Shown piece after piece: positions 18,366 to 23,906 of a stretch of 36,789 nucleotides of DNA (its first letter is position 1; each line of letters opens with the position of its first letter). This stretch comes from Rhodospirillaceae bacterium (lineage in GTDB: Bacteria > Pseudomonadota > Alphaproteobacteria > Azospirillales > Azospirillaceae), in the NCBI GenBank assembly GCA_029267445.1, contig JAJUIU010000038.1, forward strand, positions 1-36,789, in the 5' to 3' direction. The notes under the pieces were generated by a model, which did no database searches, was not told where the DNA came from, and saw only the letters and a list, made by a program, of their open reading frames with translations. A program made the translations under genes and the position numbers.

Positions 18366-19334
18366 TCAGTCGGCGAAGGCCTCCTCCCAGGTGCCCTTGG
18401 TGGCAGCCTTGGAGTATTCGGTGGCGCGGTTCTCGAAGAAGTTCGTGTGCTCGATGCCGTTCAGGATGGCGTCCATCCAGGGCAGCGGGTTCTTCTCGAT
18501 CCGGTAGATGGGCTGGAGGCCGAGCTGGGTCAGGCGGCGGTCGGCGATGTAGCGGATGTAGCGCTTCACATCCTCGCCCGTCAGCCCCTCGATCGGGCCC
18601 ATCTCGAAGGCGAGGTCGATGAAGGCGTCCTCGTGGTGGACGATGGTCTCGCAGGCGACATAGAGCTCGCGCTGCAGCTCCTCGGTCCAGATCTCCTCGT
18701 TCTCCGCGATGAAGGTGCGGAACAGCTTGATGATGCTCTGCGTGTGCAGGCTCTCGTCGCGCACCGACCAGGTCACGATCTGGCCCATCCCCTTCATCTT
18801 GTTGAAGCGGGGGAAGTTCATCAGGATCGCGAAGCTGGCGAAGAGCTGCAGCCCCTCGGTGAAGGCGCCGAACACCGCCAGGGTCTTGGCGATGTCCTGA
18901 AGGCTGTCGACGTTGAACTCGTGCATGTAGTCGTACTTGTCCTTCATCTCCTTGTAGCGGAGGAAGGCCGAGTACTCGGTCTCCGGCATGCCGATGGTGT
19001 CGAGCAGGTGGGAGTATGCGGCGATGTGCACCGTCTCCATGCTGGAGAACGCCGCCATCATCATCTGGATCTCGGTCGGCTGGAACACGCGGCTGTAGTG
19101 CCGCATGTAGCAGTTGTTCACCTCCACGTCGGCCTGGGTGAAGAAGCGGAAGATCTGCGTCAGCAGGTTCCGCTCCCCGTCCGTCAGCTTGTTGCGCCAG
19201 TCCTTGACGTCATCCGCCAGCGGCACCTCCTCCGGCAGCCAATGGATCCGCTGCTGGGTCAGCCAGGCCTCGTAGGCCCAGGGGTAGCGGAACGGCTTGT
19301 AGACGGGGTTCGGCGTCAGCAGGGCGGAGGGCAT
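18366..19334 (-). CDS. nrdB: Ribonucleoside-diphosphate reductase beta subunit (class Ia)
   Basis: 322 residues, ferritin-like radical-generating subunit. The six di-iron ligands line up with E. coli NrdB spacing: Asp69 (TQADVEVNN), Glu100 and His103 (SMETVHIAAY), Glu160 (FTEGLQLF), Glu194 and His197 (RDESLH). The radical Tyr is Tyr107, four residues after His103. It generates the tyrosyl radical used by NrdA to reduce NDPs to dNDPs. There is no ATP-cone. I chose the ATG at 19334 because the family begins there; an in-frame ATG at 19355 is possible. It is on the same strand as nrdA but 2.1 kb downstream, with an EF-hand gene between, so it must have its own promoter. An NrdR-box-like sequence lies at 19349-19364. 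Confidence 0.95.
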   Translation of the reverse strand: MPSALLTPNPVYKPFRYPWAYEAWLTQQRIHWLPEEVPLADDVKDWRNKLTDGERNLLTQIFRFFTQADVEVNNCYMRHYSRVFQPTEIQMMMAAFSSMETVHIAAYSHLLDTIGMPETEYSAFLRYKEMKDKYDYMHEFNVDSLQDIAKTLAVFGAFTEGLQLFASFAILMNFPRFNKMKGMGQIVTWSVRDESLHTQSIIKLFRTFIAENEEIWTEELQRELYVACETIVHHEDAFIDLAFEMGPIEGLTGEDVKRYIRYIADRRLTQLGLQPIYRIEKNPLPWMDAILNGIEHTNFFENRATEYSKAATKGTWEEAFAD

Positions 19335-19348
19335 GTCGGGCGCTGTCC

Positions 19349-19364
19349 ATACCATATCTAGTGG
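19349..19364 (-). promoter_or_regulatory. NrdR-box-like sequence upstream of nrdB
   Basis: On the minus strand it reads CCACTAGATATGGTAT and matches about 12 of 16 positions of the NrdR consensus (acaCwAtATaTwGtgt). A weaker match lies about 31 bp farther upstream, the usual spacing of paired NrdR boxes. It ends 14 bp before the chosen start codon, which is closer than usual, so confidence is limited. Confidence 0.35.
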
Positions 19365-19487
19365 CCGGAACCATATCCGGCACCCTAGAGAAGGTAACAC
19401 AACGGACGGAGTTGAAAAGCCCGACGTACCTGTGAATCAGGTGGAAGGCGGGGTTTGTCGCACCCCCCACCCCATTATTCCGGGGTA

Positions 19488-20135
19488 CTACCGCCGGCTC
19501 AGCAGGAATTCCACGGCCTCGCGCTGGGCGGCCATGAACTCGTCGCGCCCCACCGCCCCGTCCCCATCGCGGTCCCACCCGGCGATCCGCCCGGCCGCAT
19601 GGGCCCGGAACTCCGCCTCCGTCACCCGGAAATCGGCGTTGGCATCGGCCGACATGACGGGATCGAGCCCCATGCGCAGCCGCGCCCGGGGCCCGCGCTG
19701 CCCGTCGGGCGTGGCCTCGACCTGGCTGGGATCGATGGTGATCGGCGCCGGCGGGCGGCGGCGCGAGGGGCGCGGCTCCGGCGAGTGCGGCACGTGATAG
19801 GGCGAGCTGGTGCGCGCCTCCGTTAGTTCCACCGAGGTGACGTAGCCGTCGCCGTTCCGGTCGTAGGCCTTGAACACGCGGGCGGCGTCGGCCGCCATCT
19901 CGGCCGCCGTCAGCCGCCCGTCGCCGTTCGAATCGACGCGGCCGAACCAGGCGTCCAGCGTCTGGGCGTGGGTCTGGAGATCGGGGGTGGGCAGGCCCAG
20001 CAGCTCCCCGTTCGGGCTGACCTGGGCGAAACGGAGCGGCGGCCTGTCCGGGCCGGGGCCGGCGGCACAGCCGGCGAGCGCGCCGGCGAGGATGAGCGGG
20101 ACCAGGGCGGAAACGGCGGTCGGACTGCGGCGCAT
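19488..20135 (-). CDS. EF-hand lipoprotein
   Basis: 215 residues. Signal peptide with lipobox LAGC (Cys23) for lipidation. Four calcium-binding loops follow: DSNGDGRLTAAE, DRNGDGYVTSVE, DANADFRVTEAE and DRDGDGAVGRDE. The third lacks a Gly and has Phe where a Gly-x ligand is expected, so it may bind weakly. The pairs are separated by a Pro/Arg-rich linker (SPEPRPSRRRPPAP). It is a likely periplasmic or surface calcium-binding protein. It ends 153 bp before nrdB and may be preceded by a 22-residue membrane peptide gene at 20184-20252. No partner or pathway is evident; its position between nrdA and nrdB looks incidental. Confidence 0.9.
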   Translation of the reverse strand: MRRSPTAVSALVPLILAGALAGCAAGPGPDRPPLRFAQVSPNGELLGLPTPDLQTHAQTLDAWFGRVDSNGDGRLTAAEMAADAARVFKAYDRNGDGYVTSVELTEARTSSPYHVPHSPEPRPSRRRPPAPITIDPSQVEATPDGQRGPRARLRMGLDPVMSADANADFRVTEAEFRAHAAGRIAGWDRDGDGAVGRDEFMAAQREAVEFLLSRR

Positions 20136-20530: not shown

Positions 20531-20746
20531 CGGCTGGCGGACAGTGCCATGGATAGGGTGCCACCCGCGTCCCCACCCGCCTTCCCTGCGAAAGCAGGGA
20601 TCCACGGTTTTCTGTCGCCGAACGGGTGGTGGGAAAGAACTGTGGGCCCCTGCTTGCGCAGTGGAAACGGAGAATGAAGGCGAACAGTACGCCAGCGACC
20701 CTCCGTGTCTCCGTGTTGAACGATCCTTGAGCCCGGCCTGCGGCCT

Positions 20747-20876
20747 CTAAGGTGACATCAAAGGTGACAAAGGTGACATCTAAGGTGACAAAGGTGACGT
20801 CTAAAGTGACATCAAAGGTGACATGGGATTCCAGCGATTCCAGGCACTTGTCGCCTCTAAGGTGACAAAGGTGACG
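20747..20876. repeat. GGTGAC direct-repeat array with mostly alternating 12/9-bp spacing
   Basis: GTGAC begins at 20752, 20764, 20773, 20785, 20794, 20806 and 20818, then at 20862 and 20871. Spacings are 12, 9, 12, 9, 12, 12, then 44 and 9. The unit is AAGGTGACAT or AAGGTGACAA. Most of the array is therefore a 21-bp double unit, two helical turns. The two blocks both start with GCCTCTAAGGTGACA. It is too short and too regular for a CRISPR array and has no unique spacers. Confidence 0.8.
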
Positions 20877-21017
20877 TGATTCGATCACGCGGCGGTTCAT
20901 TCACGATATGCAAGACCCGGCGGCGCGGGGCCGCTGGGGTGGTTTGTAGCAGATTTCAGGAATATTTTCCAGATGCGGCGGCGGTGCGGGCGGCGGAGGC
21001 CGGTGCGGGTGGATGGG

Positions 21018-21441: not shown

Positions 21442-23319
21442 TCACTGACAGGCCAGGCACTCCTCGTACTTGTTCGGCTCGCCCGCGGCCGGTGCGGCGG
21501 CGGCGGTTTTGGTCTTGGGCATGGAGAGGTCCTTGGTCACGTCGCTCTCGGCGCGCTGCACGGAGAGCGAGCGGAGGTAGTACATGGACTTCACGCCCTT
21601 CTTCCAGGCCTGGTAGTGGATCTGGTGCAGGTCGCGCTTGTGCACGTCGGCCGGCAGGAAGATGTTGAGGCTCTGGGCCTGGCAGATGAAGGGCGTGCGG
21701 TCGGCGGCGAGGTCGATCAGCCAGCGCTGGTCCAGCTCGAACGCGGTCTTGAACACATCGCGCTCCAGGTCGGTCAGGAAATCCAGATGCTGGACCGAGC
21801 CGCCGTTGAGCGTAATCGAGGACCAGGTGTCCTCGTCGTTGCGGCCATAGCCCTCCAGCACCGTCTCCAGGTGCTTGTTGCGCACGCTGAAGCTGCCGGA
21901 CAGGGTCTTGTGGGTGTAGGCGTTGGCCGCCGACGGCTCGATGCCGGGGCTGGAGCCGCCGCAGATGATGGAGATGCTGGCCGTGGGCGCGATGGCGATC
22001 TTGTTGGAGAAGCGCTCCATCACGCCGTACTCCGCCGCGTCCGGGCACGGGCCCCGCTCCTCCGCCAGCTTGACCGAGGCGGCGTCCGCCTGGCGCTTCA
22101 CATGGGCGAACATGCGCTTGTTCCAGACCTTGGCCATGACGCTTTCGATCGGCACGCCCTGGGACTGCAGGAAGCTGTGGAAGCCCATGACGCCGAGGCC
22201 GACCGAGCGCTCGCGCTCGGCCGAATAGCGGGCGCGGGCCATCTCGTCCGGCGCGTTCTTGATGAAATCGTCCATCACGTTGTCGAGGAAGCGCAGCGTG
22301 TCCTCGATGAAGGTCGGGTGGTCCTGCCACTCCAGGAAGTATTCGAGGTTCAGCGAGCTAAGGCAGCAGACGGCCGTGCGCTCCTGCCCCCAGGGGTCCA
22401 GGCCCGTGGGCAGCGTGATCTCGCTGCACAGGTTGGACATCTTCACGTTCAGGCCGGCCAGCTTGTGATGCTCCGGGATGGCCCGGTTCACATGGTCGAT
22501 GAAGAGCAGGTACGGCTCGCCCGTCTCCACCCGCGCGGTGAGGATGCGGATCCAGAGGTCGCGCGCCTTCACCACACGGATGGTGGCGCCGTCCTTCGGG
22601 CTGGTCAGCTTCCACTCCGCATCCTCCTCCACCGCGCGCATGAAGGCGTCGGGGATGGCGATGCCGTGGTGGAGGTTGAGGGCCTTGCGGTTCGGGTCGC
22701 CGCCGGTGGGACGGCGCATCTCGATGAACTCCTCGATCTCGGGATGGGAGACCGGGAGGTAGCAGGCCGCCGAGCCGCGACGCAGGCTGCCCTGGGAGAT
22801 GGCGAGGGTGAGGCTGTCCATCACCCGGATGAAGGGGATGACGCCCGAGGTCTTGCCGTTGCCCTTGACCTTCTCCCCGATGGAGCGGAGGTTGCCCCAG
22901 TAGGAGCCGATGCCCCCGCCCTTGGCCGCCAGCCAGACATTCTCGTTCCACAGGCCGACGATGCCCTCCAGGCTGTCGGAGGACTCGTTCAGGAAGCAGG
23001 AGATGGGCAGGCCGCGCTTGGTGCCGCCGTTGGACAGCACCGGCGTGGAGGGCATGAACCAGAGGCGCGAGATGTAGTCGTACAGGCGCTGGGCGTGGGC
23101 GGCGTCGTCCGCATAGTAGCCGGCGACACGGGCGAACAGGTCCTGGTAGGACTCACCCGGCAGCAGATAGCGGTCGTCGAGCGTGGCCTTGCCGAACGCG
23201 GTCAGCAGATCATCCCGCGAACGATCCACAACCACCTGCTTGTGGCCGCGCACCTGGACGGAGCCCAGGAGATCCCCGCCCTGAGGCTGCTTCGCCTCGA
23301 AAACGTCGCCGTCGCGCAT
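21442..23319 (-). CDS. nrdA: Ribonucleoside-diphosphate reductase alpha subunit (class Ia), without ATP-cone
   Basis: 625 residues. Catalytic subunit reducing NDPs to dNDPs with NrdB. Active-site Cys108 (GLPISCFLN) and Cys319 (AVCCLSSLNL) form the redox pair. Asn296, Cys298 and Glu300 (SNLCSEI) are the radical and substrate residues. The radical-transfer Tyr pair is in KSMYYLRS, and the C-terminal shuttle is Cys621-x-x-Cys624 (ECLACQ). The chain starts directly with the helical domain: the ~90-residue N-terminal ATP-cone that senses dATP in E. coli NrdA is absent. A Lys/Ala-rich tail links the barrel to the CxxC. It has its own promoter region with DnaA-box-like and NrdR-like sites (23352-23398) and a strong terminator. 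Confidence 0.95.
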   Translation of the reverse strand: MRDGDVFEAKQPQGGDLLGSVQVRGHKQVVVDRSRDDLLTAFGKATLDDRYLLPGESYQDLFARVAGYYADDAAHAQRLYDYISRLWFMPSTPVLSNGGTKRGLPISCFLNESSDSLEGIVGLWNENVWLAAKGGGIGSYWGNLRSIGEKVKGNGKTSGVIPFIRVMDSLTLAISQGSLRRGSAACYLPVSHPEIEEFIEMRRPTGGDPNRKALNLHHGIAIPDAFMRAVEEDAEWKLTSPKDGATIRVVKARDLWIRILTARVETGEPYLLFIDHVNRAIPEHHKLAGLNVKMSNLCSEITLPTGLDPWGQERTAVCCLSSLNLEYFLEWQDHPTFIEDTLRFLDNVMDDFIKNAPDEMARARYSAERERSVGLGVMGFHSFLQSQGVPIESVMAKVWNKRMFAHVKRQADAASVKLAEERGPCPDAAEYGVMERFSNKIAIAPTASISIICGGSSPGIEPSAANAYTHKTLSGSFSVRNKHLETVLEGYGRNDEDTWSSITLNGGSVQHLDFLTDLERDVFKTAFELDQRWLIDLAADRTPFICQAQSLNIFLPADVHKRDLHQIHYQAWKKGVKSMYYLRSLSVQRAESDVTKDLSMPKTKTAAAAPAAGEPNKYEECLACQ

Positions 23320-23351: not shown

Positions 23352-23371
23352 TGTTGATAACCTGTGGATAA
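23352..23371 (-). promoter_or_regulatory. Two adjacent DnaA-box-like sequences upstream of nrdA
   Basis: On the minus strand TTATCCACA (23363-23371), a perfect match to the TTATNCACA DnaA box, is followed two bases later by TTATCAACA (23352-23360), one mismatch away. They start 33 bp before the nrdA start codon. E. coli nrdAB is known to be controlled by DnaA through two boxes in its promoter, so a similar link to replication initiation is plausible here. Confidence 0.6.
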
Positions 23372-23382
23372 CCAGGTCTTTA

Positions 23383-23398
23383 ACACCACATGTTGACG
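23383..23398 (-). promoter_or_regulatory. NrdR-box-like sequence upstream of nrdA
   Basis: On the minus strand CGTCAACATGTGGTGT matches about 10 of 16 positions of the NrdR consensus, best in the right half (TGTGGTGT against TaTwGtgt). No convincing partner box is seen 31 bp away, so this is only a candidate. Confidence 0.3.
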
Positions 23399-23545
23399 TG
23401 GCGAGGGAGGATGGTACCAGATGTCGGGGGGTCGGCAAGAGGGAATTTCGGGCGGACGACGATTTCCATTTTCCAGAGTCCGGCGGCGCGCGTAAGCCCT
23501 TGATGTGACTCGGATGCAAGGTGGACGGGGTGCCGATGCGCCTCC

Positions 23546-23822: not shown

Positions 23823-23906
23823 GTCATCCCGGCGGAAGCCGGGACCCATGGCTTTCCACATGCGCCAAGCGGACAGATGGGCCCCGGCTTTCGCCGGGGT
23901 GACGGG
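23823..23906. repeat. GTCATCCCGG-class palindromic repeat, copy 2
   Basis: GTCATCCCGGCGGAAGCCGG at the left is mirrored by CCGGCTTTCGCCGGGGTGAC at the right. It is closely similar to the copy at 9782-9866. Confidence 0.8.

Follow-up and report, generated by a model that had tools for sequence, protein, structure and literature searches.

Deoxynucleotide supply must match replication. The region upstream of nrdA in this Rhodospirillaceae genome raises the question of whether one promoter bears sites both for NrdR, a likely sensor of the dNTP pool, and for DnaA, a likely sensor of initiation. We approached it from the contig segment that carries the gene, a stretch of 36,789 nucleotides referred to here as the window, and from related genomes. 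DnaA control of nrdAB, which the initial annotation of this DNA noted for E. coli, has already been reported: an excerpt of PMC8203912 describes repression of the operon by high DnaA-ATP and activation by low levels. According to a portion of PMC11317965, the usual target of E. coli DnaA is a tandem of boxes 2-3 bp apart, nrdA being among the targets, and 15 of 16 DnaA ChIP regions match a box pair. In the E. coli NrdR operator, a gap of 15-16 bp separates one 16-bp box from the other, and the operator overlaps the RNA polymerase site, as set out in part of PMC12176259. For Caulobacter, the regulon table excerpted from PMC3973325 places nrdA (CCNA_03607) in the direct DnaA regulon, and a passage of PMC3193534 names nrdB as directly DnaA-regulated and states that DnaA activates about forty genes. 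DnaA control of class I ribonucleotide reductase (RNR) genes is not new: it is well known in E. coli, and Caulobacter genes have been proposed or listed as targets. Three features appear to be distinctive here: a fixed NrdR-DnaA geometry, a DnaA site that comes after the predicted promoter, and a reversed order of the two sites at the nrdB genes of relatives. Among the open-access papers listed in our searches, no title or opening of an abstract described a fixed distance between NrdR box 2 and a DnaA box downstream of the promoter, the opposite order at nrdB, or the absence of the DnaA site from nrdJ.

The Predicted nrdA Control Region

The class I large subunit gene nrdA encodes a 625-residue protein on the minus strand (21442-23319; NCBIfam NF006577 (PRK09102), 1009.9 bits against a cut-off of 620). 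Read 5' to 3' on that strand, its upstream region contains a predicted -35 hexamer TTGCCG (23433-23438), a 16-bp spacer, and a predicted -10 hexamer TACCAT (23411-23416) that is overlapped by NrdR box 1, CCCCGACATCTGGTAC (23414-23429). NrdR box 2, CGTCAACATGTGGTGT (23383-23398), follows, and after 11 bp comes DnaA box 1, TTATCCACA (23363-23371), then GG, DnaA box 2, TTATCAACA (23352-23360, an 8/9 match), and finally the ATG at 23319. Both 9-mers lie where the initial annotation had placed them, on the minus strand, in tandem and in shared orientation 2 bp apart. The NrdR-like element that it had noticed beside them is box 2 of an NrdR pair at the usual distance: NrdR operators are pairs of 16-bp boxes 31-32 bp apart over a promoter, and the pair at the window nrdA is spaced by 31 bp. 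An nrdR gene is present in the genome (TIGR00244, 176.1 bits against a cut-off of 124.65).

At the predicted -10, all rows of a 17-row alignment share TGGTA and, after two further bases, AT; TTG occurs at the -35 spacing in 16 of the 17 rows. Because the promoter is itself a prediction and a strict sigma-70 scan of the nrdA upstream region returned no match, the placement of the DnaA box downstream of the promoter is likewise a prediction. The nrdA leader gave no Rfam match at E values up to 0.1; three weak matches at 23823-23903, outside the leader, are to miRNA models and fall far below the gathering scores. Two GANTC (CcrM) sites occur in the window at -192 and -161, and such sites have no fixed places across the 12 family rows looked at.

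Chance Expectation and the DnaA Protein

The pattern TTATNNACA has two matches in the 36.8 kb window, both before nrdA, and none of 100 dinucleotide shuffles of the window contained two (mean 0.14). With the strict consensus TTWTNCACA there are also two window matches, one before nrdA and one elsewhere, a count reached in 4 of 100 shuffles. Across the 4.23 Mb genome TTATCMACA has 11 matches, exactly as many as the reversed control, and we therefore rejected the rarity of a single TTATCCACA as evidence. A lone box is weak by this measure, so the weight must be carried by the pair, its conservation, and its spacing. The pair pattern TTATNNACA-N{2,3}-TTATNNACA has one match in the genome, before nrdA, and none in the reversed control; the chance of a partner box is 1.7e-5 per site. 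The arrangement TTATCCACA-GG-TTATCAACA has the form of a double DnaA box of the Stringer et al. 2024 type, with two boxes in the same orientation 2 or 3 bp apart.

Only one protein in the genome matches the DnaA C-terminal domain. Its domain IV is identical to that of E. coli DnaA at 51 of 94 residues and at all nine checked positions, which we take to be the ones that read DNA. With these positions as in E. coli, the host DnaA should, by its sequence, be able to read an E. coli-type box. At another locus (L123:2034-2163, G000:C114), just before an HNH endonuclease gene, TTATCCACA occurs exactly twice over at a distance of 121 bp, once in each orientation, and may mark an origin-like or other DnaA site.

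Conservation and Spacing at nrdA

We judged the family to be Azospirillaceae from the named relatives of nrdA (Oleisolibacter albus, 86% identity; Nitrospirillum, 83-84%). A match to nrdA at E <= 1e-100 was found in 28 of 82 family genomes. With named relatives added, the family set comprises 24 rows of the main nrdA type with 20 distinct upstream sequences; these are related species and do not count as independent events. Nine divergent copies (66-68% identity) and one fragment (L108-L117) were left out of the count, and the 9-mer is absent from the stretch inspected in these, which is probably N-terminal coding sequence.

The initial annotation had named conservation of both 9-mers in close relatives as the test of its proposal, and the two boxes fared differently. 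TTATCCACA is invariant, occurring upstream of class I nrdA in 20 of the 20 distinct family sequences, the top count among 1680 letter permutations (the next reaches 7). The longest invariant run in the 17-row alignment is TTATCCACAG, at 10 bp, followed by the 5-bp TGGTA of the -10/NrdR box 1. TTATCAACA is found in none of the 23 other family rows, so that this genome alone of the 24 carries it. For the 16 other rows of the alignment, even the best same-strand partner at a distance of 2-3 bp departs from the box at 4 or more positions. Weaker partners with 2 mismatches occur at other distances, namely TCATACACA 7 bp downstream in the Nitrospirillum-type rows and GTGTCCACA 5 bp upstream in L092.

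Wherever it can be measured, in 23 of 24 rows and 19 of 20 distinct sequences, the distance from TGGTAnnAT (-10/NrdR box 1) to the DnaA box is exactly 48 bp; in the one other row, L104, a contig end cuts the upstream region off. In 20 rows the NrdR spacing is 31 bp and the DnaA box follows after 11 bp, and in 3 rows the two values are 32 and 10 bp. For L006 this geometry, 31 and 11 bp, was anchored on the -10 motif, the best-scoring NrdR scan pair there being distant and wrong. From the DnaA box to the ATG, the distance is 40 in 19 of the 24 rows and 41-52 in the other 5. A constant 48-bp distance beside a variable distance to the ATG suggests that the site is tied to the promoter/NrdR operator more than to the start of the gene.

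The Box Upstream of nrdB and dnaB

The small subunit gene nrdB (18366-19334, minus strand; Pfam PF00268, 262.4 bits against a cut-off of 33.6) had been called unlinked to nrdA, which is inexact: both genes are on the minus strand with about 2.1 kb between them, linked though not adjacent. The interval holds an EF-hand protein gene (Pfam EF-hand; 19488-20135, minus strand) and short GTCACCTTTGTCACCTTAGATGTCACC-type repeats (20720-20900, minus strand). In L220, L221, L223, and L225, one or two EF-hand-like frames with a recurring DPVMSA stretch also lie beside nrdB.

The nrdB promoter was said to have an NrdR-like site and no DnaA box. The first part stands, CCACTAGATATGGTAT being present at 19349-19364 on the minus strand with a partner at 31 bp, ACCTTCTCTAGGGTGC, that is a poor match by eye. 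The second part holds for exact boxes, but a degenerate DnaA-like 9-mer, TGATTCACA (7/9), occupies 19431-19439 on the minus strand, the position where several relatives carry TTATCCACA. An exact TTATCCACA precedes nrdB in 5 of 13 family loci (mean 0.02 and maximum 2 over 300 sampled permutations); the 13 include the window, itself without an exact box, and several of the five positives are closely related. These figures leave out the Nitrospirillum-type nrdB loci (L224-L230, 7 of the 20 examined), and with all counted the result is 5 of 20. The seven excluded loci lack a good NrdR pair (best scores 20-24 vs 26-34) and lie about 0.8 kb behind nrdA, from which we infer that their nrdB is probably cotranscribed with nrdA.

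In the relatives that have it, TTATCCACA starts 25-39 bp before NrdR box 1 of nrdB, the opposite order to nrdA. The earlier suggestion that the two subunits might be controlled differently thus survives in a changed form: the difference lies not in the presence of a DnaA box at one gene but in its side, upstream of the NrdR pair at 5 of 13 nrdB loci and downstream at nrdA. One locus, L213, has two exact TTATCCACA before nrdB with 1 bp between them.

The same 9-mer occurs 90 bp upstream of dnaB in this genome. In the family it is found within 200 bp upstream of dnaB at 17 of 29 usable loci (the next permutation reaches 7), the set being the best 30 of 83 matches in 81 genomes less L264, a gene fragment at a contig end. 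Two family members, L245 and L246, have exact TTATCCACA-GC-TTATCCACA double boxes before dnaB.

nrdA Upstream Regions beyond the Family

We then considered alphaproteobacterial nrdA upstream regions in a named set of 76 and a class sample of 85, with permutation controls run on the full 450 bp, possible coding frames included. When pairs at offsets of 20-45 bp are scored with an NrdR box consensus, 62 of the 76 named and 57 of the 85 class upstream regions have their best pair at 31-32 bp. The raw count of TTATCCACA is 16 of 76 and 12 of 85, the top permutation in both sets (permutation mean 0.19 and next best 5 in the named set, 0.24 and 4 in the class sample). In the class sample this raw 12 tops all 9-mers, and in the named set three NrdR-box 9-mers (17 each) exceed it. 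The exact 9-mer is missing from 73 of the 85 class-sample upstream regions.

Part of this signal may be coding. In 7 of the 16 named and 4 of the 12 class rows, every site follows a possible start codon in a frame that stays open as far as nrdA, and in 9 of those 11 rows TGTGGATAA stands in one reading phase, in which it would read ..V-D-K... Sites outside an nrdA-open frame number 9 of 76 and 8 of 85; the 8 include L132, which belongs to the family, and several of these sites, 180-430 bp upstream, may fall in another gene. The class-wide enrichment was scaled down accordingly: at 8 of 85 TTATCCACA is no longer the top 9-mer, others reaching 10.

A similar order is seen at nine non-family loci (L009, L012, L016, L029, L033, L071, L181, L185, and L201), where TTATCCACA in the same orientation lies 0-24 bp after the best-scoring NrdR box 2; the L181 site may be coding, read from a GTG or TTG start. 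Sites in reverse orientation at a similar distance are seen at L017 (+27), L148 (+20), and L152 (+31), and also at L071 (+25).

Proposed Control of nrdA and Its Alternatives

Sequence-based evidence gives good support to a predicted DnaA-binding site at nrdA: the box is conserved and constant in its spacing, it reappears at dnaB and nrdB, and domain IV of DnaA is conserved. We consider it probable that nrdA has a composite control region and that DnaA bound at the box would most likely hinder expression from within the leader. The predicted box lies in the presumed 5' leader, at about +34 for a transcription start 7 nt beyond the -10, and this position makes repression of nrdA by DnaA-ATP the likeliest outcome. 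Bound DnaA-ATP would most likely act as a road-block to promoter escape or early elongation, or it might stabilize the NrdR-repressed state. Relief would come once initiation uses up DnaA-ATP and the forks, consuming dNTPs, lower dATP. In this scheme the dNTP pool would be sensed through NrdR and the state of replication through DnaA. With its second box in tandem, this genome would bind DnaA more strongly than its relatives do.

The opposite direction of control, in which DnaA binds and activates nrdA, perhaps by displacing NrdR or with a start site other than the predicted one, seems to us possible though rather unlikely. Activation has been described for DnaA-dependent genes of Caulobacter in the excerpt of PMC3193534, so the direction at nrdA could indeed be reversed, and it is also the effect of low DnaA-ATP at E. 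coli nrdAB. Caulobacter nrdA and nrdB, as listed in the parts of PMC3973325 and PMC3193534 cited above, are direct DnaA targets, and the nrdB box of relatives stands upstream of the NrdR pair, the typical position of an activator. The nrdA box, however, is downstream of the sole conserved promoter-like motif seen, which is more in keeping with repression.

Two further alternatives would take DnaA out of nrdA control. The conserved 9-mer might serve another regulator or an mRNA leader element, its likeness to a DnaA box being due to chance. It does sit in the presumed leader, and single TTATCMACA sites are no commoner in the genome than the reversed control; yet the same 9-mer precedes dnaB and nrdB, at nrdB in a different arrangement, and the leader has no Rfam match up to the E value given above, so that we regard a chance resemblance as very unlikely. 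Still less credible is a site that mainly titrates or reloads DnaA in the manner of datA or DARS, its nearness to nrdA being incidental. That this is the genome's one match to the tandem-pair pattern could be read in its favor, but promoter control fits better with the exact distance kept to the nrdA -10/NrdR box and with the presence of the 9-mer before dnaB and nrdB as well, and relatives have single boxes. We retain hindrance of nrdA expression by leader-bound DnaA as the preferred reading.

Set beside known systems, the window nrdA resembles E. coli nrdAB in having tandem DnaA boxes (3 bp apart in E. coli, TTATCCACAaagTTATGCACT, in the excerpt of PMC11317965) and an NrdR operator at a class Ia promoter (PMC12176259, in part). 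It resembles Caulobacter crescentus as a case of alphaproteobacterial class I RNR genes, which are listed there as direct DnaA targets (PMC3973325, PMC3193534). The spacing of the NrdR pair is that of known NrdR operators as given in the same part of PMC12176259, from which the region differs in that a DnaA box follows box 2 at a fixed distance. In E. coli about 230 bp separate nrdA from nrdB, whereas the window nrdB is 2.1 kb away and has its own NrdR-like site. The E. coli DnaA pair presumably precedes both the -35 and the NrdR boxes; on that assumption the window pair differs in lying downstream of the predicted promoter and NrdR boxes, and the DnaA box at the nrdB of relatives is on the same side as the E. 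coli boxes. DnaA acting from opposite promoter sides at two genes for one enzyme would be a testable case.

Class I and Class II Enzymes

The family also has a B12-dependent RNR. Class II nrdJ is present in 80 of 81 family genomes, and of the 29 upstream regions taken from the 30 best loci (L292 was dropped as too short), 21 have an NrdR-type offset of 31-32 and none of the 29 has TTATCCACA. Among the RNR promoters examined, the DnaA site is thus found at class I only, the co-resident B12-dependent enzyme having NrdR-type sites alone, which offers a testable case of RNR classes dividing their labor, with one class coupled to the cell cycle.

A more far-reaching model can be sketched, which we regard as speculative and quite unlikely to hold in full. 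It would apply to Azospirillaceae and to certain further alphaproteobacteria. NrdR on boxes 1 and 2 and DnaA 10-11 bp beyond box 2 would make up a single, physically coupled operator at nrdA, and at nrdB DnaA would bind on the upstream side of the promoter. DnaA-ATP would have contrary effects on the two genes, either repressing nrdA and activating nrdB or the other way round, thereby setting subunit ratio and cell-cycle timing, and the class I enzyme only, not NrdJ, would be tied to replication. In one family genome, nrdJ is in two pieces, one with an in-frame TAA (G063:C1:386921-390689).
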